A stretch of 64,000 nucleotides of DNA, from the NCBI RefSeq assembly GCF_018070025.1, contig NZ_JAGPYQ010000002.1:2108001-2172000 (forward strand), in the 5' to 3' direction. Made by a program: the position numbers and the translations under genes. Below the pieces are notes generated by a model. That model saw nothing but the letters and a program-made list of their open reading frames with translations, did not search any database and was not told the DNA's origin. The DNA comes from Streptomyces liliiviolaceus. Lineage in GTDB: Bacteria > Actinomycetota > Actinomycetes > Streptomycetales > Streptomycetaceae. Every line of letters begins with the position of its first letter. Within the stretch, counting starts at the first letter, position 1. Positions 5,610-42,781 of this stretch are shown piece after piece.

Positions 5610-6839
5610 TCAGCCCTTGGCGGCGGTGCCGTGCAGGGTGCGTGCCAGCTTCGGGCCCAGCCAGCGCTTGAGCCTGCGCAGGGATTCGAGCCGCCCGGCC
5701 GCCCGGTCGAGCCGGTAGTAGAGCTGCGGCGGCACGTACGGCAGCAGGGGCGAGTGCCGCTGGCCGAGGAGCGCGAACATCTGCGCCGGAGGCAGGTCGA
5801 TGTACCGCGGCAGGTTCTCGTACCACAGGGCGCTGTGGCGGGCCGCGCTCTGCACGGACAGCAGCTCGGCCTTGCGCACCTTCTCGTACGCGGCGAGGGC
5901 CGGGGCGAGTCCGGCCCGCCCGGGCTCGCTCGCGGGCCGCTTGCCCAGCGCGTCGGCCAGGGCGATGGCGTCCTCCAGGGCGAGGGTGGTGCCCGCGCCG
6001 ATGGAGTAGTGCGTGGTGTGGGCGGCGTCGCCGAGCAGGACGACGTTCCCGTGGGACCAGGAGCGGTTGGTGAGGGTGCGGAAGTTCAGCCACTGCGCGC
6101 TGCCGCCCGCGGTCGCCCGTCCGATGAGCCGGTGGCCGTCCAGCAGCTTGACGAAGAGCTCTTCGAGGCGGGCGAGCCCCTCGGCCTCGTCGGCCCGGTC
6201 GAGGCCGAGCCCCGTCCAGGTCTCGGGCGAGCACTCGACGACACAGGTGCTGCGGTCGTCGCCGAACCCGTAGGCGTAGCACCAGATCCAGCCGTGCGGG
6301 GTCCGGACGAAGGCGAAGGTGAACGCGTCGAAGACCTTCGTGGTGCCCAGCCAGATGTACCGGTTGCGGCCGAGCGCGGTCTCGGTGCCGAAGCGGTCGG
6401 CGTGGCGCTCGCGCACCCCGCTGCGCACGCCGTCGCAGGCGACGACCAGGTCGGCGTCGGGCAGCGCGGCCCCGTCGGCGACCTCGTCCTCGAACTCGAC
6501 GCGTACGCCCAGGGAGCGGGCCCGCTCGGCGAGGATGTCCAGCAGCCGGCCGCGTCCGATGCCGAACCCCTCGTCGCCGTGGTGGGTGGTCGTACGGTCG
6601 CCGACGTGCGCGACACCATCGCTCCAGCGGACCGAGTTCTCCCGCACGACCCGCGCCGACTCGGGGTCGCCCGCCTCCAGCTTGTCGAGCAGGCTCCCCC
6701 AGTACGTCACCCCCCATCCGTAGGTCGAACCGGCCGGGTTGCGTTCATGGACGGTGATCTCGTGGTCCGGGTCCTGACGCTTCATCAGGATCGAGAGGTA
6801 CAGGCCGGCGGGCCCACCGCCGACGCAGGCGATCTTCAC
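5610..6839 (-). CDS. FAD-dependent aromatic monooxygenase (anthraniloyl-CoA monooxygenase type)
   Basis: This 409-aa flavoprotein begins with the FAD-binding loop VGGGPAGLY (residues 6-14). It continues with ERNPAGSTYGWG, a DG motif in VVACDGVRSGVRE, and the second FAD motif LLGDAAHTTHYS near residue 270. The N-terminal pattern and the TYGWG stretch match the hydroxylase domain of 2-aminobenzoyl-CoA monooxygenase and salicylyl-CoA 5-hydroxylase. The reductase half found in bifunctional members is absent, so this is a stand-alone hydroxylase using NAD(P)H and oxygen. No CoA ligase gene is adjacent, so the substrate remains open. The ATG at 6839 is followed at once by the Rossmann motif, which fixes the start. 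Confidence 0.85.
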   Translation of the reverse strand: MKIACVGGGPAGLYLSILMKRQDPDHEITVHERNPAGSTYGWGVTYWGSLLDKLEAGDPESARVVRENSVRWSDGVAHVGDRTTTHHGDEGFGIGRGRLLDILAERARSLGVRVEFEDEVADGAALPDADLVVACDGVRSGVRERHADRFGTETALGRNRYIWLGTTKVFDAFTFAFVRTPHGWIWCYAYGFGDDRSTCVVECSPETWTGLGLDRADEAEGLARLEELFVKLLDGHRLIGRATAGGSAQWLNFRTLTNRSWSHGNVVLLGDAAHTTHYSIGAGTTLALEDAIALADALGKRPASEPGRAGLAPALAAYEKVRKAELLSVQSAARHSALWYENLPRYIDLPPAQMFALLGQRHSPLLPYVPPQLYYRLDRAAGRLESLRRLKRWLGPKLARTLHGTAAKG

Positions 6840-7018
6840 GCGCGCATCCCACCTTCATCAGTCGATTGTCACTCAAGGTCGTCGATCGACAGCAAAGAGT
6901 AGGGGTGCGGCGGGCGGCCCCGGGACGCACCGCGCCGCGTGTCGGACCGGCCCGGCTGTGATGGCAGGGTGAACCTGGGCATCCGGACAACAGCACCGGA
7001 CGCGCCTGGGAAGGGCTC

Positions 7019-7342
7019 ATGGACACCAACTTGTGGATTCTGGTCATCGCCGCCGCGGTCGTACTGGCGGCGGCACTCGCGGGGGCGGTCGTCCTGACCG
7101 TCCGCCTGGTCCGCACGCGGCGGAACCTGCGCCGCGCCGGACTGCCGACGGGTCCCCGCTGGGTCTTCTGGGGAGCGATCGCCTATGTCGTGCTGCCGAC
7201 CGACCTGATGCCCGACCCGGCCTATTTCGACGACATCGCCGTACTGCTGCTGGCGTTGCGGTCGATGCGCGCTTCGTCCGCCCCGCTGCGCCGGGACGGC
7301 CGCGAGTCTGCTTGGCTGGCTCCGTCAGACAAGGACCTCTAG
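7019..7342 (+). CDS. Small DUF1232 (YkvA-like) membrane protein
   Basis: A 107-aa protein with one N-terminal transmembrane helix (about residues 5-30), a basic stretch RTRRNLRRAG on the cytoplasmic side, and the DUF1232 signature YVVLPTDLMPD followed by FDDIAVLLLA (about residues 56-80), a second membrane-embedded segment. The family is of unknown function. A GAAGGG ribosome-binding site precedes the ATG. The metallo-hydrolase gene starts 13 bp after its stop, so the two are probably co-transcribed. It is divergent from the FAD monooxygenase, with about 180 bp between them. Confidence 0.82.
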   Translation: MDTNLWILVIAAAVVLAAALAGAVVLTVRLVRTRRNLRRAGLPTGPRWVFWGAIAYVVLPTDLMPDPAYFDDIAVLLLALRSMRASSAPLRRDGRESAWLAPSDKDL

Positions 7343-7355
7343 GGCCGGGACGATC

Positions 7356-8102
7356 ATGCAGGCAGACATCCGTCAAGTCGCCGACGGCATCCATCTCGTG
7401 CACGGCAGCAACACCAACTGGGTGATCCTCACCGAGGGGGACGCCGTCACCCTCGTGGACACCGGCTATCCCGGCGACCGCGAGAAGGTGCTCGCGTCCC
7501 TGGCGGCCGTGGGCAGTTCACCCGAGGCCGTCACGGCCGTCCTCGTGACGCACGCCCACAACGACCACCTCGGGTCGGCCGAGTACCTCAGCAGCACCTA
7601 CGGCACGCCCGTGTACACCCACGAGGCCGAAGTCCCGCACGCGCGCCGGGACTTCCTCCACCAGGTGACCGTCGGACAGGTCCTGAGGAACGCCTGGCGG
7701 CCCGGTGTGGTGCCGTGGGCCGTGCACGCGCTGCGGTCCGGCGGCACCGCCCATGTGCCGGTCGCGCAGCCGCGGGCGTTCCCGGGCGAGGGGGCGCTCG
7801 ATCTGCCCGGCCGTCCCGTGCCCGTGCACACCCCCGGGCACACGGCCGGCCACTGCGCCTTCCATCTGCCCGAGGCGGGCGTGGTGATATCGGGCGACGG
7901 GCTGGTCAACGGCCACCCCACCTCACGTCTGGAGGGACCGCAACTGCTGCCTGTCATGTTCCATCACGACCGGGGCGGGGCGCTGGCCTCCCTCGACGCG
8001 TTCGAGGCACTGCCGGGCGACATTCTGCTGCCCGGGCACGGTCCCGTGTACCGCGGCTCCGTACGGGAGGCGGCGGGGCGGGCGCGGGAACGGGCGGCGT
8101 GA
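7356..8102 (+). CDS. MBL-fold metallo-hydrolase
   Basis: The 248-aa protein has the metallo-beta-lactamase signature THAHNDHLG with metal ligands His66, His68, Asp70 and His71. Further ligands are visible in HTPGHTAGH (around residues 152-160), ISGDGL and LPGHGPVY. Length and layout match glyoxalase-II/lactonase-like hydrolases. There is no signal peptide, so it is cytosolic. It probably forms an operon with the preceding DUF1232 gene (13-bp gap). The substrate cannot be inferred; no quorum-signal or antibiotic gene is nearby. Confidence 0.87.
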   Translation: MQADIRQVADGIHLVHGSNTNWVILTEGDAVTLVDTGYPGDREKVLASLAAVGSSPEAVTAVLVTHAHNDHLGSAEYLSSTYGTPVYTHEAEVPHARRDFLHQVTVGQVLRNAWRPGVVPWAVHALRSGGTAHVPVAQPRAFPGEGALDLPGRPVPVHTPGHTAGHCAFHLPEAGVVISGDGLVNGHPTSRLEGPQLLPVMFHHDRGGALASLDAFEALPGDILLPGHGPVYRGSVREAAGRARERAA

Positions 8103-8136
8103 CGCGGTCCGGCTCAGCCCCGAAGTACCTTTCGGA

Positions 8137-8550
8137 TCAAGCCTGTTGAGCTCTGCTCTGTTCGGCCGCGCCCTGTTCGGTGGCGGGTGGGTCGTCGCCG
8201 CGTACCGTCGCCAGGTACGCGGCGATGGCGTCCCGGTTGCGGGCGAGGCAGTCGATGCGGCGGGTCATGCGGTCGAGTTCGCATTCGAGGGTGGCCAGCA
8301 TCTCCGGGGTCGGGTCGGGGAAATGGATGGTGCTGGGCCTGTCGAGGCAGGGCAGGATCTGCTTGATGATCCGGGTCGGCAGTCCGGCGTCGAGCAGGCC
8401 CCGGATCTGCTGCACCCGGTCCACGAGGCGTTCGTCGTAGGAGCGGTAGCCGTTCGTGCAGCGCTCGGGGGTGATCAGTCCCTGCTCCTCGTAGTAGCGC
8501 AGCAGCCGTGGGGGCGTGCCCGTGCGCTTCGACAGCTCTCCGATCCGCAT
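8137..8550 (-). CDS. MerR-family transcriptional regulator
   Basis: A 137-aa regulator starting MRIGELSKRTGTPPRLLRYY, the canonical MerR winged helix-turn-helix. A dimerisation helix follows around residues 75-115, and an Ala/Gln-rich tail without an effector domain completes it. Its two Cys residues (in PERCTN and LPCLDRP) are not arranged as a metal site; a third Cys lies in IDCLAR. The open frame extends upstream, but the family start is at 8550, behind GCGAGG. It is divergent from the MFS exporter, and a MerR-type promoter lies in the 64-bp gap, so it most likely controls the exporter in response to a small toxic compound. Confidence 0.88.
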   Translation of the reverse strand: MRIGELSKRTGTPPRLLRYYEEQGLITPERCTNGYRSYDERLVDRVQQIRGLLDAGLPTRIIKQILPCLDRPSTIHFPDPTPEMLATLECELDRMTRRIDCLARNRDAIAAYLATVRGDDPPATEQGAAEQSRAQQA

Positions 8551-10224: not shown

Positions 10225-11208
10225 CTACCAGCGCGATTCGACCTGCGTCCTGATCCGGCGGTCGTACAGCGCCGAGATCGCCGACAGCGTCTCCGCCGGC
10301 AGCGGTCCAAGCTTCCCCGCCGCCGCGTTCGCCCGCGCCTGCTCAGGCGTGCGCGCGCCGGGGATGACCGACGTCACGCCCGGCTGCTGCACGATCCACG
10401 CCAGCGCGAGCTGCGCCGGAGTGACCCCCTCCGGAGCGAGCGCGGAGAACTCCGCCGCCGCCTCCACCCCGGTGGCGTAGTCGACGCCGGAGAACGTCTC
10501 GCCCTGGTCGAACGCCTCCCCGTGCCGGTTGAACGTCCGGTGGTCGTTCGCCGCGAACACCGTGTCCTTCGTGTACTTGCCGGACAGGAGCCCGGAGGCG
10601 AGCGGCACGCGGGCGATGATGCCGACCCCGGCCTCCCGCGCCGCCGGCAGCACCCGCTCCAGCGGCTTCATCCGGAACGGATTGAGGATGATCTGCACAC
10701 TCGCCACACCCGGCCGCGCGATCGCCGTCAGCGCCTCGTCGACGGTCTCCACGCTCACGCCGTACGCCGCGACGCGCTCCTCCTCGACCAGCGTGTCGAG
10801 CGCGTCGAACACCTCGTCCGACGAGTACACCGCGGTCGGCGGGCAGTGCAGCTGCACCAGGTCGATCCGGTCGACGCCGAGGTTGCGGCGCGAACGGTCG
10901 TTCCAGGCACGGAAGTTGTCGAGGACGTAGTTCTCCGGGACCTGGTCGAGCCGGCGGCCCATCTTCGTCGCGACCAGCACGTGCAGATCGGGCCGGCCGC
11001 TGAGGAACGCGGCGATGGTCTCCTCGCTGCGCCCGTCGCCGTACACGTCCGCCGTGTCGAAGAACGTCACCCCCGACTCCGCGGCGGTCTCCAGGACCGC
11101 CAGCGCGTCCTTGTCGTCCACGTCGCCCCAGTCGGCACCGAGTTGCCAGGTGCCGAGTCCGACGACCGATGCGTGCTGTCCTGACCTGCTGAATTCGCGC
11201 TCGTCCAT
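10225..11208 (-). CDS. Aldo/keto reductase
   Basis: A 327-aa NADPH-dependent oxidoreductase. The catalytic tetrad is visible: Asp and Tyr in FFDTADVYGDG, Lys in VATKMG and His in VQLHCPP. The C-terminal nucleotide-binding part carries VPLASGLLSGKY and VIPGARTPEQ, as in the AKR family that includes YhdN/Tas-like proteins. Length is normal. The ATG at 11208 gives the expected N-terminus, with strand 1 at VGLGTWQLG. It is the likely distal gene of an SDR-AKR pair (61-bp gap to the SDR stop). The end of the gene abuts the REP-like cluster. Confidence 0.9.
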   Translation of the reverse strand: MDEREFSRSGQHASVVGLGTWQLGADWGDVDDKDALAVLETAAESGVTFFDTADVYGDGRSEETIAAFLSGRPDLHVLVATKMGRRLDQVPENYVLDNFRAWNDRSRRNLGVDRIDLVQLHCPPTAVYSSDEVFDALDTLVEEERVAAYGVSVETVDEALTAIARPGVASVQIILNPFRMKPLERVLPAAREAGVGIIARVPLASGLLSGKYTKDTVFAANDHRTFNRHGEAFDQGETFSGVDYATGVEAAAEFSALAPEGVTPAQLALAWIVQQPGVTSVIPGARTPEQARANAAAGKLGPLPAETLSAISALYDRRIRTQVESRW

Positions 11209-11269
11209 GGGGTCAGTCTGGCACCCGTCCGGCGCCGCGCCGGACGCCGCCCCCGTGGGACGGGGCCGT

Positions 11270-12208
11270 TCAGGCGACGGCCGCGGGGAGGGCCACGCCG
11301 GTCAGCCGCTCGGACTCGGCCCACAGCCTGCGGTTGGTGCCGGTGTCGAGGGCGCGCCGGGTGACCCGGGTGGTGGCGGTCGGGCCGACCAGGCCGAACC
11401 TGCGGCCGGGCCCGTAGTAGCCGCCGGCCGTCGCCTCGGGGCTGGTGGCCGCGTACAGCAGCGGTTCGGTGCCCTCCTCGACCTGCTGCTTGGGCAGAAG
11501 GAGGCCGAGCCGGAGCATCACGGTGCGTTCGGGCTTGTCGCGGCCGAGGGTGGCGCCCGCCGTCTGGAGGTTGGTCACGGTGTAGCCGGGGTGGGCGGCC
11601 GTGCTGAGGAGGTTCCAGCCGCGCTCGGCGGCGAGGTCCGCCAGATGCCTGGCCAGCATCAGGTCGGCCAGCTTGGACTGGGCGTACGACCGGTTGGGGT
11701 TGTAGCGGCGGCGCTCCCACTGGAGGTCGTCGAAGTCGATGCGGCCGAAGTTCGCCATGCCGCTGCTCATGGTGGTCACGCGGGGCGCCGGCGCGGCGAG
11801 CAGCGCCGGCAGCAGGCGCACGGTGAGGGCGAACGGGCCGAGGTAGTTGCTGCCCAGCTGGAGCTCGAAGCCGTCCGCGGTGGTCAGCCGGGTGGGCGGG
11901 GCCATCACTCCCGCGTTGTTCACGAGCAGGTCGAGCGGGGTGCCGTCGGCGAGGATCCCGTCGGCGAACGTCTCGACGGAGGCCAGGTCGGCGAGGTCCA
12001 CGCGCCGCACCTCCAGCTGCGCGTGCGGATGCCGGGCAAGGATCTCGGCGCGGGCCTGCTCCCCCTTGGCGACGGTGCGCACGGCCATCACCACGCGCGC
12101 CCCGGCCGCCGCGAGCCGCCGTGCGGCCTCCTTGCCCGTGCCGCTGTTGGCACCGGTGACGACGGCGGACTGTCCCGTCCGATCAGGGACGACGTATGAC
12201 GTGGGCAC
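11270..12208 (-). CDS. Short-chain dehydrogenase/reductase (retinol-dehydrogenase type)
   Basis: The 312-aa enzyme has the SDR cofactor motif [12 protein letters not shown], then NNAG, the catalytic Ser region MSSG, and YAQSK (Tyr and Lys of the active site). The extended C-terminal segment matches the WW-oxidoreductase/retinol-dehydrogenase-like SDRs. The GTG at 12208 is the best start: AAGGAG lies 5 nt upstream. The in-frame ATG eight codons earlier has no ribosome-binding site. The promoter region holds three copies of a TetR-type operator, one sitting between -35 and -10 boxes, so it is very probably repressed by the divergent TetR gene and induced by its ligand. Confidence 0.9.
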
Positions 12209-12244
12209 GGGGACTCCTTGTGTGTGCGGCACTCCCAGGATTAG

Positions 12245-12312
12245 GAGACCGGCGGTCTGATGTGATTCAAGCTAGCAGACCACCAGTCTGATAACAACAG
12301 ACCGGGGGTCTG
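12245..12312. promoter_or_regulatory. Three phased TetR-type operators (CAGACC-3N-GGTCTG)
   Basis: Three 15-bp dyads share the form CAGACC-nnn-GGTCTG: 12245-12259 (GAGACC GGC GGTCTG), 12276-12290 (CAGACC ACC AGTCTG) and 12298-12312 (CAGACC GGG GGTCTG, perfect). Their centres are 31 and 22 bp apart, close to three and two helix turns, so all face the same side of the DNA. They lie between the divergent SDR and TetR genes. Confidence 0.8.
12269..12297 (-). promoter_or_regulatory. SDR promoter with operator in its spacer
   Basis: Reading leftward, TTGTTA (12297-12292) and TAGCTT (12274-12269) are separated by 17 bp. The second operator (12276-12290) fills that spacer, the classic arrangement for repression by a TetR dimer. 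Confidence 0.6.
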
Positions 12313-12341
12313 CTGTCCGGCGTCCACAGATCGCCGGTCGG

Positions 12342-12347
12342 TAGACT
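12342..12347 (+). promoter_or_regulatory. -10 box TAGACT, leaderless tetR-family gene
   Basis: TAGACT lies 6 nt before the ATG at 12354 and there is no Shine-Dalgarno sequence, so the message probably begins at the start codon. The nearest operator is centred about 49 bp upstream. Confidence 0.55.
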
Positions 12348-12353
12348 GCGGCC

Positions 12354-13043
12354 ATGCCAGACACCTTCCAACGCGCCCGCAGCGAGGAGCAGCGCGCCGT
12401 CCGCCGCAGGGCGATCCTCGACACCACGGCCGCGATGCTCGGTGAGATGCCGGTGGCGAAGGTGAGCCTGAACGAACTGAGCCGCCGGGTGGGGCTCGCG
12501 AAGTCGAACGTGCTGCGCTACTTCGAGTCCCGCGAGGCCGTCCTGCTGGAACTGCTCGCCACCGCCACGCAGGAACTGCTCGACCACCTCGACACCGCGC
12601 TGCCCGAGGCCGTCGACGCGGGCGCCCCCGTCTTCGAGCGCGCGGACCAGGTCGCCGCGACCCTCGCGGACGCCCTCGCCGCGCGCCCGGTGCTGTGCGA
12701 CCTGATCAGCGCTCAGGCCGCGGTCCTGGAGCGGAACGTGTCGACGCAGGTCGCCGCCGAGCACAAACGCTCCTCCATCGGCCACGCGTTCGCCCTGGCG
12801 CACCGGGTCCGTCTGCACGTGCCCGAACTGGACGAGCGGGACGCCGTACGGTTCACCGCCGGGGCGCTCATGATGGCCACGGCGGCCTGGCCGCACGCCC
12901 ATCCGTCGCCCGCCGTCCTCGCGGTCTACGAGTCCGAACCCGAACTGACGGTCCTGCGGATCGACTTCACCGCGGCCCTGCGCGAGTCGCTCGAAGTGCT
13001 GCTGTCCGGACTGCTGGCACGAGCCGCGCGAGCCGCACGCTGA
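12354..13043 (+). CDS. TetR-family repressor
   Basis: A 229-aa protein with a TetR helix-turn-helix at about residues 20-65 (ILDTTAAMLGEMP, then RRVGLAKSNVLRYFESREAV) and an all-helical ligand domain of TetR_C type ending in an Ala/Arg-rich tail. It starts with no ribosome-binding site but a -10 box 6 nt upstream, suggesting a leaderless transcript. The three dyads in the 145-bp gap to the SDR gene are its probable targets, giving autoregulation plus control of the SDR/AKR pair. The inducer is unknown; a substrate of the reductases is the natural guess. Confidence 0.9.
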   Translation: MPDTFQRARSEEQRAVRRRAILDTTAAMLGEMPVAKVSLNELSRRVGLAKSNVLRYFESREAVLLELLATATQELLDHLDTALPEAVDAGAPVFERADQVAATLADALAARPVLCDLISAQAAVLERNVSTQVAAEHKRSSIGHAFALAHRVRLHVPELDERDAVRFTAGALMMATAAWPHAHPSPAVLAVYESEPELTVLRIDFTAALRESLEVLLSGLLARAARAAR

Positions 13044-32507: not shown

Positions 32508-33191
32508 TCATTCGGACGAGGTCGGGGACCCACCGATCCCTGCGTCTCGGGCCCGGGCGACGGCCGCGGCTCGGTCGGAGACCTGGAGCTTGAACAGGAT
32601 GGCGGAGACGTGGTTGCGGACCGTCTTCTCCGACAGGACCAGCCGGCCGGCGATCTGGTGATTGCCGTGCCCGAGGGCGACCAGGTCCAGCACCTCCCTT
32701 TCGCGCTCGGTCAGTTCGGGGAAGACCTGGGCGGCGTACGCGCGATGGGCTCCGGTGAAGAAGGCGATGATGCGGTGGGCCACCGCCCGGCCGTAGACCG
32801 CGTCCCCGGCGGCGACGGTGAGTACGGCCCGGACGATGTCCGCGCTGTCGGCGTCCTTGAGGAGGTACCCCCGGGCTCCGGCCCGCAGCGCCCCGAAAAG
32901 GGCCTGGTCGTCCTCGTGCATCGTCAGCACCAGTACGCCGAGGGACGGGTGGCGGGCCAGCAGGGCACGCGTGGCCGCGGTGCCGTCCAGACCGGGCATG
33001 GCCAGGTCGGTCACCACGACGTCGGGTGATGTGCGCTCGACGGCCGCCAGCAGGTCGTCGCCGTTGCCGGCCTCGCCCACGACGTCCACGGTCCCGCTGG
33101 TGGCGAGCACGGCGGCCAGGCCGTAGCGGTACATGGGGTGGTCGTCGGCGATGACGACGCGGACGGCCCGGCGGCCGGCTCCGTCGTTCAT
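32508..33191 (-). CDS. NarL/LuxR-type response regulator
   Basis: A 227-aa protein with a receiver domain (acidic pair in IADDHP, phospho-acceptor Asp62 in VVTDLAMPG, Thr in LTMHED, Lys in LLKDADS). A LuxR-type helix-turn-helix follows (about 159-201: LTEREREVLDLVALG, then SEKTVRNHVSAIL). GGGGAGAGG precedes the ATG. No kinase lies beside it; the only NarL-type kinase in the window is at 41.4-42.2 kb. It converges on the importer terminator and is divergent from a membrane-protein gene. Confidence 0.92.
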   Translation of the reverse strand: MNDGAGRRAVRVVIADDHPMYRYGLAAVLATSGTVDVVGEAGNGDDLLAAVERTSPDVVVTDLAMPGLDGTAATRALLARHPSLGVLVLTMHEDDQALFGALRAGARGYLLKDADSADIVRAVLTVAAGDAVYGRAVAHRIIAFFTGAHRAYAAQVFPELTEREREVLDLVALGHGNHQIAGRLVLSEKTVRNHVSAILFKLQVSDRAAAVARARDAGIGGSPTSSE

Positions 33192-33361: not shown

Positions 33362-34132
33362 TTGTCGATCTTCCCGCCTCAGTTCGCCGTAAGTCCTCGA
33401 ACGACAGCCACCCTGCAGTCCCTTCCTCCCCTGCTGACCGCCGTGCTCACATTGCTGCTGCACACGACCGACGCCGAGCAGATCGCCCAGGTCGGCGCCT
33501 GCGCGTTCGGACTCATCCTGGCCGGTCTGCCCGTGCTGCAGCGCTCCACCAACGCCGACTGCCGGCGGGCCGCCGGGCCACCCGGCGAGAGCACGCGGAT
33601 CGTCGGTCCGCGGCCGCGGATCGAGCCGAGCACCACCACCGTCGTACTGACCGTGGCACTCGGGGTCGCCGCGTTCTGGCTCCTCGACCTGGTCGCCACC
33701 TGGGTGGGTCTGGGCAGCCTGGGCTACTGGAGCGGCAAGCATCCCAGCGACCAGTCGGAGATCTACCGCTCGGTCGCCCTGCGCGGCTTCCCGATCCTGG
33801 GGTTCGGGGTCTTCGCCGTCGCCGTCGCCATGGCACACCGCCTGCACGACCGCGCGCGGCCGGCCCTGTTCCTCACGAGCGTCCTGTACACCGTCTCCCT
33901 GCTCGTCACCAACGCGGTAATGGTGAGCCACTGGGACAGCGAGCCACTGCCGGAGAACGTCTATCTGCCCGTCCTGCTCGGTGCGCTGGCGTGGCTCGTC
34001 TCCGATGTGGGGCGCCGGTACGCCGAGCGCACCCAGGTGCTCTTCGACCTCGTCCAGGCGATCAAGCTGCAGTTGCGCCGGGACGCGCAGGATCCGGGTA
34101 CCGGGGCGCCCGTGGCGGCGCGGCGGGGGTGA
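33362..34132 (+). CDS. Multi-pass membrane protein of unknown function
   Basis: A 256-aa protein with about six hydrophobic segments (near residues 18-36, 42-58, 95-118, 140-160, 168-188 and 203-220) and a basic cytoplasmic tail with a short amphipathic helix (LFDLVQAIKLQLRRD). The TTG start follows GAGGGAG with 4-nt spacing, a good ribosome-binding site. I recognise no family. Divergent from the response-regulator gene (170 bp) and convergent with the protease gene across a shared terminator. It might belong with either neighbour, but nothing in it decides this. Confidence 0.75.
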   Translation: MSIFPPQFAVSPRTTATLQSLPPLLTAVLTLLLHTTDAEQIAQVGACAFGLILAGLPVLQRSTNADCRRAAGPPGESTRIVGPRPRIEPSTTTVVLTVALGVAAFWLLDLVATWVGLGSLGYWSGKHPSDQSEIYRSVALRGFPILGFGVFAVAVAMAHRLHDRARPALFLTSVLYTVSLLVTNAVMVSHWDSEPLPENVYLPVLLGALAWLVSDVGRRYAERTQVLFDLVQAIKLQLRRDAQDPGTGAPVAARRG

Positions 34133-34200: not shown

Positions 34201-35631
34201 TCATCGGTCCATCAGCAGCGTCATCGCCCTCTCGACGCTGACGAGCCCCGCACCTGTCGCGCCGGCACGGGCGGACCGACCACCGGTGTCCTCGTTGCTC
34301 CATCCCCGGTCGACCGGACGTGCGGTCGCCTTGAGCAGGCTCCGCACCTCGCGCGGTGACAGGTCGGGGTTCCGCTCCAGCAGCAGCGCGCAGACTCCAG
34401 CCACCTGCGGTGCGGCGGCGGACGTACCGCTCAGCAGCGCCCAGCCGTCACCGGGCGTCGTGCCGTCCGAGGCCTTCCTCGACTGCTCCTGGTCGATCGT
34501 GGAGCCACGGGGAGTGGGCAGCAGGATGTAGGTCGCGTCGGGGCGCATCCCCACGAGACCGCACACGTCGGGAACTTTGCGGTCCCGGTAGAAAGCGCTG
34601 GTGAACGCGCTGGCGTAGTTCGACGCCTCCAGTTGTTCGAACTCGTCCCGGTAGACGCCCCCGACGGCGATGGTGTCGGGATGCTGGGCCGGGAACGCGT
34701 AGTGGCCGTTGCCCGCGGCACACACCACGACGATGCCCTTCTTCACCGCGAGCGACACCGCCGCCGCCAGGAACGGATCGAGGGCCGACAGGTCCGCCTT
34801 GCGGTCGTACTCCAGGCTCATGTTGATGATCTGCGGCTGGGGTTTCTGCTGAGCCGCCTCGATGAACGCCCCGAGGAGATTGGTGTCCAGCGCCTTGACC
34901 ATGGTGAAGTCGATACCTGGTGCCAGCGCGAAGGCGTTGGCCGACTCGCTGGTGCCGTGTCCGTCCTCGTCGATCTCCCGATCGCTGGTGCCGGGCCCCA
35001 GGACGACGGTGCCCTTCAACGACCTCTCGACGAAATACGGATGCTCCTCCCATCCGGTGTCCACCATGGTCAGCCGGACGCCTGTGCCCAGGATGTGCCG
35101 GCCGTGCACCGTGCGTGCGCCCAGGTACTCGGCGACCTGGTCGGTGGTGAGATGCCAGTAGTCGAGCTTCGGCAGGGGGCCGGCGCCGCGCAGCGTGGTG
35201 GCCGGCTGCTCCAGTGCCACGCCTTCCAGGAACTGGGCCGCCGGCAGCCCCTCCGTCGAGATGAGACCGGGCAGATCGGCCCTGGCCGTGTCGATGTACG
35301 TGCGGGTCCTGCGCAGATTCACCGCGCCGGGCTGGATGACCTCGCGCTCCTCCGTGACCAGGATCGTATCGAAGTAGTCCTCGTAGGCGTCCGGCGGACC
35401 GACGATGTTGATGCTCACCGTGCTGCTGTCGTCGGTGGTGCCGAGGACGGTGAAGCCGGCCCTGGTGAGTTCCTGCTTCGCGCGCTGGACGACGCTGTCG
35501 TCCGAGACGAACTGCTCCGCGTTCTCCGTCGTGATCGTGCCGGCGTCGAAGAGGGAGACCCCGCCTCGCGAAAGGGGCGACGCGTGCGCGTACACCCTGC
35601 CGGGCAGACGGTTCTCGATGCTGTAGGCCAT
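34201..35631 (-). CDS. S8 (subtilisin-like) serine protease without signal peptide
   Basis: The 476-aa protein has a complete subtilase core: Asp in LTMVDTGW (~188), His in DGHGTSES (~223), oxyanion Asn in AAGNGHYAF (~309) and Ser in SGTSAAAPQVAG (~400). The first ~160 residues form a separate N-terminal domain of unknown fold (MAYSIENRLPGRVYAHA). No signal peptide is present, so it should work in the cytosol, unlike most streptomycete subtilases. It lies 20 bp after the radical-SAM methyltransferase gene on the same strand. In RiPP pathways such proteases often remove the leader, which is my inferred role. The ATG at 35631 has a weak GGGGG upstream; the frame beyond it is shadow. Confidence 0.85.
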   Translation of the reverse strand: MAYSIENRLPGRVYAHASPLSRGGVSLFDAGTITTENAEQFVSDDSVVQRAKQELTRAGFTVLGTTDDSSTVSINIVGPPDAYEDYFDTILVTEEREVIQPGAVNLRRTRTYIDTARADLPGLISTEGLPAAQFLEGVALEQPATTLRGAGPLPKLDYWHLTTDQVAEYLGARTVHGRHILGTGVRLTMVDTGWEEHPYFVERSLKGTVVLGPGTSDREIDEDGHGTSESANAFALAPGIDFTMVKALDTNLLGAFIEAAQQKPQPQIINMSLEYDRKADLSALDPFLAAAVSLAVKKGIVVVCAAGNGHYAFPAQHPDTIAVGGVYRDEFEQLEASNYASAFTSAFYRDRKVPDVCGLVGMRPDATYILLPTPRGSTIDQEQSRKASDGTTPGDGWALLSGTSAAAPQVAGVCALLLERNPDLSPREVRSLLKATARPVDRGWSNEDTGGRSARAGATGAGLVSVERAMTLLMDR

Positions 35632-35651
35632 GTGCGTGTACCCCCGATGAG

Positions 35652-37526
35652 TCAGGGCCGGGTGGCCGGGACGGCCAGAGCCACGTTCCTGGGGCCGTCC
35701 CTGAAGACGAGCCCGGCTTCCGCGAATTCGTTCAGGACGTGCTGCACCCCGTCCACCGGTCCGTGCAGTCCCAGCCGCTCGTGCACCGCGGCCGCCGTCA
35801 CGGGGCGGTCGCAGCAGGCGAGGTACAGGTCCGCCGTCGGGCCTTCGAGGACGTAGGTGCCCTCGTCCTCCTTCCTTCTGCCGTCGTGGATCTGGACGTA
35901 GTGCGGCGCCTGCCGGTACTCCAGTACGGGTGGCTCGGCGTCGCCCAGCCACGCGCCCTGCCAATCGGCGACGGCCTCGCGCAGGGACCTGTAGTCGTCG
36001 TCGGGGAGTGCTCCCTCCATCTCGCAGCGGAAGAAGTACGCGACGAGATCGAGGTCGATGTCCGCGGGATACACCCGTGCGTAGGCGGGCTCGGGACGCA
36101 GGTCGCGCAGGATCTCGTCCCGGTCTGTGAACAGGGGGCTGAACCGCTCCATGGTGAGACGGCCGGCGTCCCCCGGCGGTGTCAGATGCCAGAGGTCCCT
36201 CAAGGCGGCGGCCTGCTCGTCGCAGTCCCGCGGGCTCTCGCCGGGAAATCCCCAGAGGAGGTTCCACTGCACGTCCATCCCGTGATGGCGCGCCCAGCGC
36301 AGGAGATTCACGTTCTGCGCGGCCGTCACGCCTTTGCGCATGAGACTCAGCACACGGGAACTGAACGACTCGATTCCGGGCTGGATCTGTGAAACACCGG
36401 CGTCCGCGAGCAGTTTGATCTGGGCCCGGGAAAGATTGGCCTTGACTTCGTAGAAGATCTCGTAGTGTGCGCCGCTTTCGACCAGCGCGGGAAACAACGT
36501 CCGGAAGTAGCGCATGTCGAGGATGTTGTCGACCGCCTCGAATCGAAAACTGCCGTATCGACGGGTCTGGCAGGCGAATTCGTCGACAACTCGCTGGGCC
36601 GATTTGGAGCGGAAGTGCATGGTCTCCCCGTTGAGGCCGCAGAAAGTGCAGTGGTGTTTCATCCCCCACCAGCAGCCGCGGGCGGTCTCCAGAGGAAGGT
36701 GGACGGCGCGGGACGCCGCGCGGGGCTGCAGCCGAAGGTTCTCGGCGCGTCGGAAGTACTCGTCGTAGTCCGGCATCGGCAGGTCGTCGAGATTCTGGAC
36801 GAGCCGTGCCGACGGCCCCGTCACCACGCGCCCGGCCTTCCTGCGGGCCAGCCCGGGCACGCCGTCGAGGTCCCTGTCGCCGGCCAGCGCTTCCAGCAGC
36901 ATCGGGAAGGCCGCGTCCGCCTCCCCGATGACCGCCGCGTCGATGCTGTCGACCGCGCGTACCCACTCCTGCCCCATGGGAGCGTCGAAGTTGGCGCCGC
37001 CGAAGAGGGTGAACAGCTCCGGGTGCCGCTGCTTGAGCCGTCGGGCCAGCGCCATCGAGGCCGCGTTCTGCTGGAACGTCGAGGTGAAACCGACTACACG
37101 GAACCGGTCCCACGGGTACGCGTCGACGAGGGCGTCCAGATAGGCCGGGACTTCGTCGCACCTGATGCGCACGAGCCGTTCGCGCAACCGGTCCACGGGG
37201 GTACCGAGGGCCGGTGCGAGGTCTTCGGCGTACAGGTCGACGGACTCGTTCCGCGGATCGGGCGCAGCAGCGCCGAACGCCTCCAGGGAGAACAGCCAGT
37301 CCCCGACCAGGCGTCCGGAGTTGTCGGCGAGAGCGCGGTACATGTCCACGCCGAGGCCCGCGGCGAAATCCAGGTTGGCGTGGAGGGTGGTCGCGGGGAA
37401 CCCGTGCGTCCAGGCAAGGGCGCTCAGCAGCCCTGCCTGGAGGGAGGGGCGCCGGTCGTCCATGAAGGGCATGCACACCAGGACGACGGGCCATTCGCCA
37501 CGCCGCGGATCGCTCACACTCGACAT
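35652..37526 (-). CDS. B12-binding radical-SAM RiPP maturase (C-methyltransferase type)
   Basis: The 624-aa protein has an N-terminal cobalamin-binding Rossmann region (about 10-220, VVLVCMPFMD, VVGFTSTFQQNAAS, LFGGANFD). The radical-SAM domain follows, with cluster motif ARGCWWGMKHHCTFCGLNG, that is Cx7CxxC near residue 282, and a C-terminal domain. This motif and the CGLNG ending typify the RiPP maturation radical-SAM C-methyltransferase family (TIGR03975-like, as for proteusin methylases). It would methylate unactivated carbons of a ribosomal peptide. It starts 13 bp after a 107-aa protein and ends 20 bp before the S8 protease. The start at 37526 is uncertain; an in-frame ATG at 37574 would overlap the upstream gene. 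Confidence 0.87.
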   Translation of the reverse strand: MSSVSDPRRGEWPVVLVCMPFMDDRRPSLQAGLLSALAWTHGFPATTLHANLDFAAGLGVDMYRALADNSGRLVGDWLFSLEAFGAAAPDPRNESVDLYAEDLAPALGTPVDRLRERLVRIRCDEVPAYLDALVDAYPWDRFRVVGFTSTFQQNAASMALARRLKQRHPELFTLFGGANFDAPMGQEWVRAVDSIDAAVIGEADAAFPMLLEALAGDRDLDGVPGLARRKAGRVVTGPSARLVQNLDDLPMPDYDEYFRRAENLRLQPRAASRAVHLPLETARGCWWGMKHHCTFCGLNGETMHFRSKSAQRVVDEFACQTRRYGSFRFEAVDNILDMRYFRTLFPALVESGAHYEIFYEVKANLSRAQIKLLADAGVSQIQPGIESFSSRVLSLMRKGVTAAQNVNLLRWARHHGMDVQWNLLWGFPGESPRDCDEQAAALRDLWHLTPPGDAGRLTMERFSPLFTDRDEILRDLRPEPAYARVYPADIDLDLVAYFFRCEMEGALPDDDYRSLREAVADWQGAWLGDAEPPVLEYRQAPHYVQIHDGRRKEDEGTYVLEGPTADLYLACCDRPVTAAAVHERLGLHGPVDGVQHVLNEFAEAGLVFRDGPRNVALAVPATRP

Positions 37527-37539
37527 CTCGGAGCCCGGG

Positions 37540-37863
37540 CTACTTCCTGGTCGGCCCGGACTTCGGTGGCTCATTCGCCAACCGGTCGTTCCGCTCGCCC
37601 CGGTCTCCCCGGTCTGCCCCGTCGTCCTGCGCCGAGTAAAGTCGGTTCACTTTGAACGCGGCCCGGGACCTGCGTGAGTCACGCCCGCGCTTGAAGCGCG
37701 TACCCAGAAGCTGCGCCTCCATCCTGCCGGTGAGCTGATCACCGGCAGCCTCGAACACTAATTCCAAAGCCCTTTTGTCGGCCTCGGAGAGTTTGTCCCC
37801 CGCCCGCACCACCGCGTTCGCGAGACGCTCTATGTCCTGCCAATCAACTGTATTCCCGTCCAC
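37540..37863 (-). CDS. Small hydrophilic protein, candidate RiPP precursor
   Basis: A 107-aa protein from a GTG with GAAAGGGG at 4-5 nt. The first half is a predicted amphipathic helix (VDWQDIERLANAVVRAG and SEADKRALELVFEAAGDQL), the middle is basic (FKRGRDSRRSRAAFKVNRLY), and the tail is Asp/Arg/Asn-rich ending PPKSGPTRK. It has no Cys, no signal peptide and no known domain. An acidic helical leader followed by a variable tail, directly upstream of a radical-SAM maturase and a cytosolic protease, is the layout of a RiPP precursor, so that is my proposal. It could instead be a partner or recognition protein. A TTGACG lies 68 bp upstream, overlapping the SARP stop. Confidence 0.7.
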   Translation of the reverse strand: MDGNTVDWQDIERLANAVVRAGDKLSEADKRALELVFEAAGDQLTGRMEAQLLGTRFKRGRDSRRSRAAFKVNRLYSAQDDGADRGDRGERNDRLANEPPKSGPTRK

Positions 37864-37932
37864 GACGCCCCTTTCCGAACATTAATTGGCAACACTGAAC
37901 GCCGGGGAGTCTGGTGGCGGGACACCCTTCCG

Positions 37933-40860
37933 TCAAGGGGCCTTGTTTTGCGGCACCCCGGCCTCCACTTCGGCGGCGAGGCGAGCCCGCACCTGGGCGG
38001 CCTGCCGGTGTCCGAGTTCCTCCAGCAGCACCGCCGCCCTCCCCCACGCCGCGCCCGCCGCGCCCCGGTCGCCGGTGGCCAGGAGCACATCACCGAGGGA
38101 AGAGAGCGTGTCGGCCTCGTTGTACAGGTCGCCGATCTCCCGGTAGATGGTGAGCGCCCGTTCATACCTCTCGGCGGCCTGTTCGTACTGCTTGAGGTCG
38201 AGGTGGATGTGGCCGAGGCTGTCCAGGGTGTCGGCCTGGTCGAACCGGTCCCCCACTTCCTCCAGCAGGTCGAGCGCCGCCACGCAGTGGTCCAGCGCCT
38301 CCCGGTGACGGCCCAGCCGGGAGCAGAACCAGCCCACCGCGTTCAGCGCCCGCGCCCGACCGGTACGGTGACCGACCGCCTCGAAGGACTCCAGCGCTCT
38401 ACGGGCATGGTCGAGCCCTTCTTCGTACTGCCCTTCCTCGTCCTTGAGCCAGGAAAGCGTCCGATGCACGTGCGCCTGACCGAGGACGTCTCCGAGCGCC
38501 TCGTACAGGTCGAGTGCCTGCCGCATGTGGGTGGCGACGTCCTCATACCGGCTGAGCCTCATGTACGCATAGGCGACGCACCCATGGCTGACCGCTTTGC
38601 CGTGGGCACTCCCCTCACGATGCGCGGCCTCAAGGGCCCGTTCGTGTGCGGCGGCGGAGTCGTGCCAGTGTCCGGCCCGGTCGAAGTAGGGCTGCAGTGC
38701 CCAGGCCAGCTGCCAGACGTGGGTGTGGAACCGGCTGCGCCCGGCCTCCTGCTGCATCGCCAGCAGCACGGCGTGTTCCCGCAGGAACCAGGACAGCGCC
38801 TCGTCGTGGTCAGCGAAGTTCTCACCGGTGACCGATGGCAGCGGCGGGACGAGAGTGATGGGGTCGTCCCGGTACGGACTCACGTACAGGCTGGCCCGGT
38901 AGGCGCTGTGCACATAGTGGTCGAGCATGCGCTGCGTCGCGGTCAGCCGGTCGACGGGCAGGTCTCGTGTCAGGGCGAGTTCGCCGGCGTAGGCGCGCAG
39001 CAGGTCGTGCAGTTCGTAGCGGTCGCCCGACGGAGAGGCCAGAAGGTGACTTGCCGTCAGTTCGTCGAGCAGCGTCCGGGCTTCCGCGAGGGACAGGCCT
39101 GCCAGACTCGACGCGGCGGCCGCGCCGATGTCGGGGCCGGGGTGCAGTCCGAGCAGCCGGAACAGTCGGGCGGCCGGTTCGGAAAGACGCTCGTAGGACC
39201 AGGAGAACACCTTCCGGACGTTGGTGGCGGAGTCGCCGCCGTCGAGCAGGTCCAGTGCGCTGCCCGCGGCGTGCAGTTCCTTCGCCACCGCTTCGAGCGG
39301 CTGTTGGCGGCGGGTGGCGGCGTGGGCTCCCACGATGGCCAGGGCGAGCGGAAGACGCGCGCAGGAGGCGATGATGTCCCGCACCGCGTCGGGGTCGGCG
39401 GCGAGACGGTCCGTACCGATACGGCGGCCCAGTACGGCTTTCGCCTCGGCGTGGGACATCAGGCCGAGGCCGAGCGGCTGAGCCCCGTGGGTGATCATCA
39501 GTCCGGTGAGCAGATTGCGGCTGGTGACGACGCTGAAGCACTCCGGCGAGCCGGGCAGGAGGGGGCGTACCTGATCCGCGTCCTGTGCGTTGTCCAGGAC
39601 GACGAGCATGCGCCGGTTCGCCAGCAGGCTGCGGTAGAGGGCCGCTTGGCCGTCCGTGTCGACGGGGATGCGCCGGGCCGGCACCCCGAGCGCGTCCAGG
39701 AATCCGCGGATCGCCTCGGCCGGATGCATGGCAGTGCCGCTCGGGTCGAAGCCGCGCAGGTTGACGTAGAGCTGTCCGTCGGGGAAGCGCTCGCGGACCC
39801 GGTGGGCCCAGTGCACGGCCAGGGTGGTCTTGCCGACCCCTGCCGTGCCGCCGATCGCCGTGATGACGACGGTCCCGCCGTCGCCGCCCGGCCCCGCGCC
39901 CGCCCCCGGCAGGAAGGAGTCGAGCCGGTCGATCGCCTCCTCCCGGCCGACGAAACCGGCGACCGGATGTGGGAGTTGGGCGGGTACGACGGTCGTCGGC
40001 AGGCCGGTGTCGGCCGGGGCGCGCGGCGCGCGGCCCTGCGGCGCCTCGGTCGGTCCGCGATCGTCCGGGCCCGTGCCGAGCGCCGGATCGTCGGCCAGGA
40101 TCCTCGCGTGCAGGCGGCGCAGCCGCTGTCCCGGCTCGATGCCGAGTTCGTCGCGCAGCAGGCGGCGGGCGCGGTGGAAGGCGGCCAGCGCCTCCGCCTG
40201 CCGCCCTGCACGGTGCAGGGCCAGCATGAGCAGACCGTGGAAGCCCTCCCGCAGCGGGTGTTCGACGGTGAGCCGGTGTGTCTCGCCCACGAGGTCGAAG
40301 TCGTCGCCGAGGGACAGGTCGACCTCGATGCGCTCCTCCAGGACGCTGAGGCGCCGCTCCGCGAGCCGGTCGCGCTCGGCGTCGACCAGCGGTCCCGTCA
40401 TGCCCTCGCAGAGCCGGCCGTGCCACAGGCCCAGGGCCGCGTGCAGAGCCTCGGCGGTCCCGGCCCGGTCGCCCCTGGCGCGGGCCAGGTGCGCCCGTTC
40501 GATGAGGCCGTCAAAAGCCCGTACGTCCAGCTGTGCCGGTCCCGGTGTCAGCAGATAGCCGGCCTCGGTCCACGCGAGCAGTCCCGAGGGCGCGCGGGGC
40601 GGACGTTCGGGTTCCAGGACGCGACGCAGTCCGGAGACGTGCCGTTGCAGCAGGTTGGCCGCGCGCGCCGGTACGGCCCATCCCCACACGGCGTCGACGA
40701 GCTGGTCCCGGCCGATCGGGGTGTCGGCGTGCAGGAGCAGCACGGCGAGCACCACACGCTGCTGCATCTGTCCCAGGTCCAGCTCGGTCGTACCCCGCCA
40801 TGCCCGCAGCGGTCCGAGCAGTTGGAAACGCAGTCCGGTGAACGGCTCAGGCCCAGTCAT
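37933..40860 (-). CDS. SARP-type regulator with NB-ARC and TPR domains (AfsR-like)
   Basis: The 975-aa protein starts with an OmpR-like winged helix (about 8-100, RFQLLGPLRAW) and a BTAD domain (about 105-255, ending LRDELGIEPGQRLRRLH). An NB-ARC ATPase follows, with P-loop GTAGVGKTTLA (~340) and LVVLDNAQD Walker B, then a C-terminal array of about six TPRs (700-960, SLGHIHLDLKQYEQA). This is the AfsR layout: activators of secondary-metabolite genes binding direct repeats near -35. It lies upstream on the same strand as the small protein, maturase and protease, so it is the likely pathway regulator. GGTGGGAG precedes the ATG; the 5' extension of the frame is not part of the domain. Confidence 0.92.
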   Translation of the reverse strand: MTGPEPFTGLRFQLLGPLRAWRGTTELDLGQMQQRVVLAVLLLHADTPIGRDQLVDAVWGWAVPARAANLLQRHVSGLRRVLEPERPPRAPSGLLAWTEAGYLLTPGPAQLDVRAFDGLIERAHLARARGDRAGTAEALHAALGLWHGRLCEGMTGPLVDAERDRLAERRLSVLEERIEVDLSLGDDFDLVGETHRLTVEHPLREGFHGLLMLALHRAGRQAEALAAFHRARRLLRDELGIEPGQRLRRLHARILADDPALGTGPDDRGPTEAPQGRAPRAPADTGLPTTVVPAQLPHPVAGFVGREEAIDRLDSFLPGAGAGPGGDGGTVVITAIGGTAGVGKTTLAVHWAHRVRERFPDGQLYVNLRGFDPSGTAMHPAEAIRGFLDALGVPARRIPVDTDGQAALYRSLLANRRMLVVLDNAQDADQVRPLLPGSPECFSVVTSRNLLTGLMITHGAQPLGLGLMSHAEAKAVLGRRIGTDRLAADPDAVRDIIASCARLPLALAIVGAHAATRRQQPLEAVAKELHAAGSALDLLDGGDSATNVRKVFSWSYERLSEPAARLFRLLGLHPGPDIGAAAASSLAGLSLAEARTLLDELTASHLLASPSGDRYELHDLLRAYAGELALTRDLPVDRLTATQRMLDHYVHSAYRASLYVSPYRDDPITLVPPLPSVTGENFADHDEALSWFLREHAVLLAMQQEAGRSRFHTHVWQLAWALQPYFDRAGHWHDSAAAHERALEAAHREGSAHGKAVSHGCVAYAYMRLSRYEDVATHMRQALDLYEALGDVLGQAHVHRTLSWLKDEEGQYEEGLDHARRALESFEAVGHRTGRARALNAVGWFCSRLGRHREALDHCVAALDLLEEVGDRFDQADTLDSLGHIHLDLKQYEQAAERYERALTIYREIGDLYNEADTLSSLGDVLLATGDRGAAGAAWGRAAVLLEELGHRQAAQVRARLAAEVEAGVPQNKAP

Positions 40861-40949
40861 CACGGGCTCCCACCTCAAGCGGCACCTGCCGTCCACGCTA
40901 GCGCCAAACCGGTGTGAACACCGCTGCCCGGACTGCAACGGCTCCTGCA

Positions 40950-41132: not shown

Positions 41133-41414
41133 ATGACCGACCTACTGACCGCGGCCCGGGCCGAGGCGCTGTTCAGCAGCGACCTGGCCACCGGATCCGA
41201 GCCGACGCGGACCGAGATCACCGAGGCGATCCGGCGGGCGATCCGCAGCAACGGCGGCAGCCTGGGCTGCGCGGGCGCGCTCGCGTGCGCCTACGGCGAG
41301 CGCCCGGAGACCGCCGTGCCCCGGATGCGCTGGGCCCTGCGCCAGGTGCGGGCCGCCCACCCGCGGACGGCCGGGTGGCGGGCCGGATACACGGTGAGGA
41401 CCCCCCACCCGTGA
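41133..41414 (+). CDS. Small conserved actinomycete protein, 93 aa
   Basis: A soluble 93-aa protein opening MTDLLTAARAEALFSSDL, with AITEAIRRAIRS-like helices and the stretch GERPETAVPRMRWAL. This matches a small family frequent in streptomycetes, of unknown function, with a short internal segment rich in Gly/Cys (GGSLGCAGALACAYG). GGGGGC precedes the ATG. The upstream frame is Thr/Pro repetitive and not counted. Its TGA overlaps the GTG of the histidine kinase (GTGA), so the two are translated together; it may modulate that kinase. Confidence 0.75.
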   Translation: MTDLLTAARAEALFSSDLATGSEPTRTEITEAIRRAIRSNGGSLGCAGALACAYGERPETAVPRMRWALRQVRAAHPRTAGWRAGYTVRTPHP

Positions 41415-42205
41415 GGACCAGGCCGCGGGCCGTCGTGGCCGTGCCGGTCTGCCTGGCCCTTCAGCTCGCCGCCGTCGGCTGCTTCTCGGCACGGGCCGAC
41501 GTGGCTCTGGCCCTCTACGGCATCGGGGCACTGTGTGCGGCGCTCACCGCCATGGTCCCCGCCCTGCTGCGCCGCGGCCCGTCCGACGTACACGTCCGGC
41601 AGGCCGTCGCCGTGGAGCGCACCCGGATCCGGCACGACCTCCATGACGGGCTCGGTCCCCTGCTGTCGGGGATAGCGCTGTGCGCCCGGGCCCTGTCGGA
41701 CCGGCTGGAGGGGCGCGGTCTGGACATCGAGCGCACTCTGGTGCACCGGATCCGTACGGAGGTGTCCAACGCCGTGGTGGAGGTCCGCCGTCTGGTCGAC
41801 GCGCTGCCTCCCGCCGCGGTCGCCTCGCTGGGGCTCGTCGGGGCGTTGCGCGACCACGCCCGGTTCGTTCCGCCGCCGACGGACGTCGAGATCGTGACGT
41901 GTGCGCTGCCCGCGCTGCCGTCGGCCGTGGAGAGCGCGGTGTACCGGATCGTCACGGAGGCGATGACCAACGTCGTGCGGCACGCCGACGCCCGGCACGC
42001 GCGGGTCACCCTGGCCGCGGGGCCCCGCTCGCTGCTGGTCACGATCGCCGACGACGGACGCGGTATCGCCTGCGCGACGGCCGGGGTGGGGCTGACGTCG
42101 ATACGGCAGCGCGCCGAGGCCGCGGGCGGAACCCTCTCCGTGCGTACGGTCCGGGGCAGCGGCACCGAGGTGCGCGTACACCTCCCGCTGCCCCGGGCGG
42201 CCTGA
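41411..42205 (+). CDS. Orphan NarL-type sensor histidine kinase
   Basis: A 264-aa kinase with two or three N-terminal membrane helices (about 6-55). The HisKA_3 box RTRIRHDLHDGLGPLLSG follows (His ~75), then a HATPase domain with the N-box TEAMTNVVRHADA and G-boxes DDGRGIACA and GVGLTSIRQRAEAAGG. It lacks an extended sensor domain. The GTG start overlaps the upstream stop, fixing the N-terminus. No response regulator is adjacent; the nearest NarL-type one is at 32.5-33.2 kb on the other side of the RiPP-like block. Phosphotransfer between them is a hypothesis. Confidence 0.87.
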   Translation: MRTRPRAVVAVPVCLALQLAAVGCFSARADVALALYGIGALCAALTAMVPALLRRGPSDVHVRQAVAVERTRIRHDLHDGLGPLLSGIALCARALSDRLEGRGLDIERTLVHRIRTEVSNAVVEVRRLVDALPPAAVASLGLVGALRDHARFVPPPTDVEIVTCALPALPSAVESAVYRIVTEAMTNVVRHADARHARVTLAAGPRSLLVTIADDGRGIACATAGVGLTSIRQRAEAAGGTLSVRTVRGSGTEVRVHLPLPRAA

Positions 42206-42361: not shown

Positions 42362-42781
42362 ATGGCCTCTGGAACCTTCCAGTCCCTTCCGGTCCCGACC
42401 ACGGCACTCGACGGCCGCATCAGCGCCATCGTCCTGGACCCCGGCGGCAACCCCGCCGATGTCGTCAACAAGGGCACGCCGGTCACCGTACGGGTCGAGT
42501 GGAACCTCACCGGTTTCCTCGTGCCGCTGCTGGCGGGCACCTGGAACCTGCACGTCAGCGTGGACGAGATCGGCGGCCCGCACGACTTCAACGAGCCGTC
42601 GACGCCGGTGCCCGTCCCGCTCAACGGCAATCCCGACTACCGGCAGGAGATCGTCCTGTCGTCGCTGCAGGCCGGGCGCACCTACTCGCTCGTCGCCTCG
42701 CTGGCCTACCGCAATCCCGCCGGGTCGCCCGCACCGCTGGGCGGCTACGTGAACGTCGGCACCGTGAACGTCCTGCTCTGA
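42362..42781 (+). CDS. Hypothetical beta-rich protein, 139 aa
   Basis: A 139-aa protein without signal peptide, Cys or membrane segment. Alternating hydrophobic strands (VTVRVEWNLTGF, GTWNLHVSVDEIGG, TYSLVASLAY) suggest an immunoglobulin-like sandwich. AAGGAG lies at good distance before the ATG at 42362; an earlier in-frame ATG has none. I do not recognise the family. It stands alone between the kinase operon and a strong hairpin terminator. Confidence 0.72.
   Translation: MASGTFQSLPVPTTALDGRISAIVLDPGGNPADVVNKGTPVTVRVEWNLTGFLVPLLAGTWNLHVSVDEIGGPHDFNEPSTPVPVPLNGNPDYRQEIVLSSLQAGRTYSLVASLAYRNPAGSPAPLGGYVNVGTVNVLL

Follow-up and report, generated by a model that had tools for sequence, protein, structure and literature searches.

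What might a 107-residue protein of no recognised family be doing directly in front of a radical S-adenosylmethionine (SAM) enzyme and a subtilisin-like protease? The question is posed by a stretch of 64,000 nucleotides from Streptomyces liliiviolaceus (contig NZ_JAGPYQ010000002.1, positions 2,108,001 to 2,172,000; hereafter the window), whose host genome (G000) measures 11.1 Mb. We answer it, at a probability of about 75%, by reading the three genes as the core of a nine-gene biosynthetic island of the ribosomally synthesized and post-translationally modified peptide (RiPP) type, in which the small protein would be the precursor, the cobalamin (B12)-dependent radical SAM enzyme would methylate it and a cytosolic S8 protease would trim it. 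This reading is built on gene order, gene families, the boundaries of the island, a conserved promoter-like site, the fast change of the small gene and a leader similarity. Our literature search, sparse on subscription journals, yielded no publication that we recognised as describing this locus.

The three genes lie head to tail on the minus strand with gaps of 13 bp (small gene to maturase) and 20 bp (maturase to protease), just as an earlier note, made from the letters alone, had described them: a 107-residue open reading frame (ORF) with a GTG start (37540..37863), a B12-binding radical SAM enzyme of 624 residues (35652..37526) and an S8 peptidase of 476 residues, the proposed leader protease (34201..35631). 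The maturase matches TIGR03975 at 628 bits (cut-off 281.85) over profile positions 1-606 of 606, and its B12-binding domain and radical SAM barrel with the cluster cysteines mark it as a cobalamin-dependent radical SAM enzyme; its motif, ARGCWWG-MKHH-CTFCGLNG, spells Cx7Cx2C and agrees with the ARGCWWG-x4-CTFCGLNG given in that note. In the structure model, residues ~534-624 form three strands, three helices and a hairpin, a topology that fits the winged helix when compared with that of RiPP recognition elements. The protease matches PF00082 at 83.3 bits, well over the cut-off of 21.8, and its Asp/His/Asn/Ser catalytic motifs are intact in each of the six island copies, which identifies it as a peptidase S8; its N-terminus, MAYSIENRLPGRVYAHASP, has by eye no evident hydrophobic stretch, in line with the claim that it lacks a signal peptide. 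It stays below the curated cut-offs for QhpE (44 against 165 bits), for the cyanobactin proteases PatA/PatG (41.2 against 421.05 bits) and for type VII secretion mycosin, its best NCBIfam match (82.6 against 278.75 bits). As for the small ORF, its codon score is weak (12.3), and it is a genuine gene, since relatives exist and its ratio of nonsynonymous to synonymous substitution rates (dN/dS) lies at 0.32-0.76 in five pairs.

Nine relatives of the small protein were found among 5.8 billion proteins (E <= 0.01), five of them labelled to species, all Streptomyces, and four without a label; within the genus it was found in 2 of 392 genomes (its own and G122), and close maturases (at least 68% identical) were found in 2 of 296 genomes in one search and 4 of 394 in another. 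Six loci could be read, namely those of the window, GESEQ-35 (L014, where the gene caller had not called the small gene and it was located separately), S. tauricus (L015), S. geranii (L016), DI166 (L017) and P0004 (L099, a maturase locus whose genome is that of P0004, the protein being identical), and all six keep the order of Streptomyces antibiotic regulatory protein (SARP), small gene, radical SAM enzyme and S8 protease. The co-occurrence of small protein, maturase and protease that the earlier note had proposed to check thus holds in 6/6 genomes with a readable context, and no homologue without these partners, which the note had named as grounds for giving up its proposal, was seen among them; besides GESEQ-35 and DI166, which stand outside the list of nine, the relatives read were P0004, P0006 and P0008, the other six (P0001-P0003, P0005, P0007 and P0009) lying outside this count. 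A scan of the genome contigs with the small-protein alignment gave no match, yet L014-L017 of the same collection hold relatives, so the empty scan reflects a limit of the search.

The boundaries of the unit are drawn by genomes that lack it. Of 295 genomes searched in the genus, 89 strongly match a flanking oxidoreductase, and we compared 13 regions drawn from the 87 genomes other than G000 and G122, taken from among the best matches on long contigs and not at random. Measured between tblastn ends, the oxidoreductase and a 231-residue gene are separated by 27-56 bp in 11 of these 13 other Streptomyces regions, the 231-residue gene not being found near the oxidoreductase in the other two (L134 and L135), whereas they lie 10,048-10,971 bp apart in the six island genomes. 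Therefore, the nine genes between them form a unit: response regulator, membrane protein, S8 protease, maturase, small gene, SARP, 93-residue gene, kinase and 139-residue gene (32.5-42.8 kb of the window). The three-gene locus of the earlier note stands as the core and falls short as the whole. Before the small gene, a promoter-like site, TTGACG-17 bp-CAGACT (37908..37936, minus strand), shares 4 bp with the 3' end of the SARP gene and recurs with the same hexamers and spacing in all six island loci, the pattern having been defined only after the sequences had been viewed. That the genes are chance neighbours, held together through close kinship of the strains, is very improbable, for although the synteny of the six loci runs well past the island, the whole block is missing from 11 of the 13 other Streptomyces regions and three coding frames follow one another downstream of a single conserved promoter-like site.

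The small protein itself fits no catalogue. It matched no Pfam or NCBIfam family at E up to 1, the NHLP (proteusin) and Nif11 leader models, which these libraries presumably include, among them, and gave a single weak match of unknown function in PHROGs (E 0.35), which bears out the statement that it belongs to no known precursor family. The description of it as Cys-free holds for the window copy and fails for the family, in which GESEQ-35 has one Cys and the tails of P0008 and P0009 carry CPxC. In an alignment of 11 sequences the positions M1, W8, L33, V36, F37, A40, L44, G60 and K71 are invariant, and a poor structure model (pLDDT 53) offers helices 8-24 and 27-44 at fair confidence and nothing confident beyond residue 45. 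Behind the helical region lies a conserved part, ~46-76, that ends in FKVxxLY. We would accordingly divide the protein into a putative leader (~1-45), a candidate core (~46-76), which may be the modified segment, and a variable tail (~77-107). The C-terminal polar part, in which the earlier note had sought the product, is probably not it: tails vary between relatives, GESEQ-35 carrying GDQ repeats and the geranii type a CPxC motif, and P0002 and P0003 stop only 9 and 8 residues past FKVSGLY, against 31 in the window copy, so most of the window's tail is dispensable. In the GESEQ-35 small protein (L014:9623-9985) the tail contains a six-fold GDQ repeat encoded by near-identical 9-bp units.

The best-rated alternative takes the target of the maturase to be a small protein that folds: the 107-residue product would stay a protein like the QhpC subunit, and the S8 protease would remove a leader only. 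Of 16 TIGR03975-type loci that are more distant (34-47% identical), 13 have an ORF of 28-51 residues in the maturase neighbourhood, a count made at a low calling threshold and with no chance control, the ORF lying several genes away in L079, L080, L104 and L107. Against these the window protein is long at ~100 residues; its close relatives, moreover, are similar across residues 1-80, and QhpC/QhpD/QhpE operates in this manner (PMC7876137). The folded-protein explanation is nevertheless improbable, as only 9 positions are invariant in 11 sequences, the model loses confidence past residue 45 and no partner subunit was recognised in the island. Apart from this, the short peptides that neighbour other enzymes of the TIGR03975 type within the genus (L084-L087) share, by eye, an N-terminal K-x-x-(I/V)-x-(N/S)-D-P and are probably a second, distinct precursor family.

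The length of the protein would equally suit a helper or regulator, with the true substrate of the maturase encoded at some other place, and so would the similar degree of change in its leader and core regions. Three findings speak for the precursor instead. First, a look for a second conserved precursor in the gaps of the island, which did not extend to ORFs far away from it, brought none to light. A missed short precursor in those gaps was itself considered as a candidate and dropped: of nine ORFs of at least 18 residues that lie mostly in the gaps, seven match some other island and none all five others, the maximum being 4/5. Second, the rate of nonsynonymous change (dN) of the small gene is the highest of the 11 genes compared in all five pairs (0.32, 0.58, 0.59, 0.68 and 0.78; 62-codon piece only for DI166), which is not expected of a helper; the maturase gives 0.07-0.22, the S8 gene 0.14-0.36, the membrane protein 0.13-0.33 and two flanking genes 0.006-0.09. 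The synonymous rate (dS) of the small gene is high as well (0.77-2.1), so that part of its high dN comes from allelic age, saturation and alignment error. Third, there is a leader-like similarity to proteins of a second locus, and on these grounds we hold the helper explanation to be distinctly unlikely.

This second locus, L102, belongs to another genus of the family and holds two TIGR03975-type maturases, 45-46% identical to that of the window, which flank a P450, a methyltransferase gene and a 103-residue small protein; the latter is 93% identical to P0010, which is named Kitasatospora. When the window-family profile was aligned by hhalign with the L102 small protein or its family, E values of 0.004-0.0065 over 36-39 columns were obtained, and among 185 small ORFs from outside the family none aligned better than the L102 protein. 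As a control we used the first 50 residues of 753 other proteins from fetched loci, partly homologous to one another, the L102 pair having been noticed beforehand: the L102 P450 ranked first (E 0.00022), the L102 small protein second (0.0026) and an unrelated N-terminus third (0.004, only 19 columns aligned). These results support, and do not prove, a leader shared between the small-protein family and the L102 proteins. The two loci are alike in their TIGR03975-type enzymes and in a small protein with a similar helical leader; they differ in that L102 has the P450 and the methyltransferase, has no relative of the window S8 protease and a small protein that ends in GVTGTVMF. A class-wide search for an L102-type small protein found none in 197 genomes, a set without a positive control, so that the empty result shows nothing. 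Within L102, the P450 (9106-10449) begins with 45 leader-like residues, an apparent leader-enzyme fusion beside two maturases, and the maturases themselves (6259-8187 and 10984-12888) are near-identical centrally and divergent elsewhere, which suggests gene conversion.

Several points weigh against the RiPP reading. The product of the island has not been seen, and the boundaries of the core cannot be delimited. No leader-binding domain was found in the maturase by Pfam, NCBIfam or PqqD-type hidden Markov model matches. The individual hhalign values are weak to modest, and the leader is not better conserved than the core, with identities of 62, 27, 42 and 31% against 73, 41, 34 and 26% in four island pairs. 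The dN/dS of the small gene is the top value in only two of the five pairs, being exceeded by the membrane protein in two, by the 93-residue gene in one and by the S8 gene also in one. In the deposited record of DI166 the small gene (L017:9672-9964) is frame-broken, through draft error or decay, so that the candidate precursor gene stays beside its tailoring enzyme in 6/6 loci with one record broken. No relative of the window S8 protease occurs in the 16 more distant TIGR03975-type loci, and no maturase was found near S8 relatives in nine fetched regions from 8 of 13 other genomes, a sample that left out G063, G207, G254, G314, G343 and one place in G049. One metagenome study inspected TIGR03975 clusters by hand and set them aside as probable false positives for RiPPs (PMC9426513), while another source names the family as one that typically takes part in RiPP maturation (PMC12350317). 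TIGR03975 on its own is a poor RiPP marker, and what carries the case for the island is the co-occurrence of its genes, its structure as an island, the rapid change and the leader. The S8 protease, too, was tried and rejected as a cluster marker: its relatives (E <= 1e-60) occur in 15 of 392 genomes, two of them island genomes, and are met without a maturase in other Streptomyces, so the island protease was probably recruited from the wider S8 family.

In sum, it is with the same three-in-four confidence that we take the small protein for a RiPP-type precursor with a new leader. The precursor proposal of the earlier note gains from the co-occurrence, from the want of a known family and from the leader-like similarity; the precursor status and the role of the protease remain, as they were there, what we infer. 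The scenario would run as follows. The small gene would be transcribed from its own promoter, and the two-helix leader of its product would be held by the radical SAM enzyme, probably via the C-terminal winged-helix-like domain; with methylcobalamin and SAM, the enzyme would then place methyl groups onto unactivated carbons of residues ~46-76, after which the cytosolic S8 peptidase would remove the leader and probably the tail too. Substrate, methylation, cleavage, export and bioactivity are all inferred here. Expression would be under the control of the SARP, the kinase and the response regulator, and the membrane protein would serve export or self-protection.

These accompanying genes complete the island. 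The AfsR-like SARP regulator (37933..40863, minus strand; BTAD, NB-ARC and TPR) scores below the AfsR equivalog cut-off. The LuxR-type response regulator (32508..33191, minus; Response_reg and GerE) lies within the island, as does the histidine kinase (41411..42205, plus; HisKA_3 and HATPase_c). Two proteins have no family, one of 93 residues (41133..41414, plus), present in all six island loci, and one of 139 residues (42362..42781, plus), missing from the S. tauricus island. The membrane protein (33443..34132, plus; alternative start 33362) shows hydrophobic windows and gave no significant family match in library searches; a possible immunity or export function is suggested for it, and in S. 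tauricus it diverges together with the S8 and small genes. There, the flanking genes are 95-99% identical to those of the window, and flanks, kinase, N-terminal part of the SARP and response regulator together stand at 92-97%, against 72-78% for the C-terminal part of the SARP, the maturase, the S8 protease and the membrane protein and 53% for the small gene (segment limits set after a first identity comparison had been viewed). The block from the SARP sensor half to the membrane protein looks like a divergent allele, seemingly exchanged. With a diverged block set between neighbours that are 92-97% identical on either side, one might speculate, as a rather doubtful idea, that strains exchange it as a unit (sensor half, precursor, maturase, protease and membrane protein), an exchangeable peptide-specificity cassette whose methylated peptide would be sensed by the NB-ARC/TPR half of the SARP and tolerated via the membrane protein; with the same reserve, it might be likened to pherotype (quorum-sensing) or bacteriocin-immunity cassettes.

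Parallels for the parts are at hand. PoyC, the polytheonamide B12 radical-SAM C-methyltransferase, which we take to be a TIGR03975 member, works in a proteusin pathway whose leader is nitrile-hydratase-like and which employs many further enzymes; the window island resembles it in enzyme type and Cx7Cx2C motif and differs in its unrelated leader, single maturase and S8 protease. Cx7Cx2C is the motif reported for PoyC as a Val/Ile C-beta-methylase (PMC11285071). QhpE is described as a subtilisin-like protease that takes off the leader in the cytoplasm once the radical SAM enzyme QhpD has done its work (PMC7876137). QhpC/QhpD/QhpE would share with the island a small substrate protein, a radical SAM enzyme and a cytosolic S8 leader protease; QhpD differs from the B12-type enzyme of the window in forming thioether bonds from Cys, a residue that the window's small protein lacks. 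S8 or subtilisin-family proteases also act in RiPP maturation as NisP, ElxP and PatA/PatG, ElxP in the cytoplasm (PMC10885120), and these lanthipeptide and cyanobactin systems differ from the window island in having other maturases.

If the RiPP reading is true, a new precursor family with its own leader would be added to the B12 radical-SAM peptides, made by an unusually small biosynthetic set of one maturase and one cytosolic protease that would suit reconstitution. The natural alleles and the clean empty-site comparison would provide a means to ask what selects the rapid change, and the leader match to L102 would give a handle on further clusters that models of known precursors miss.

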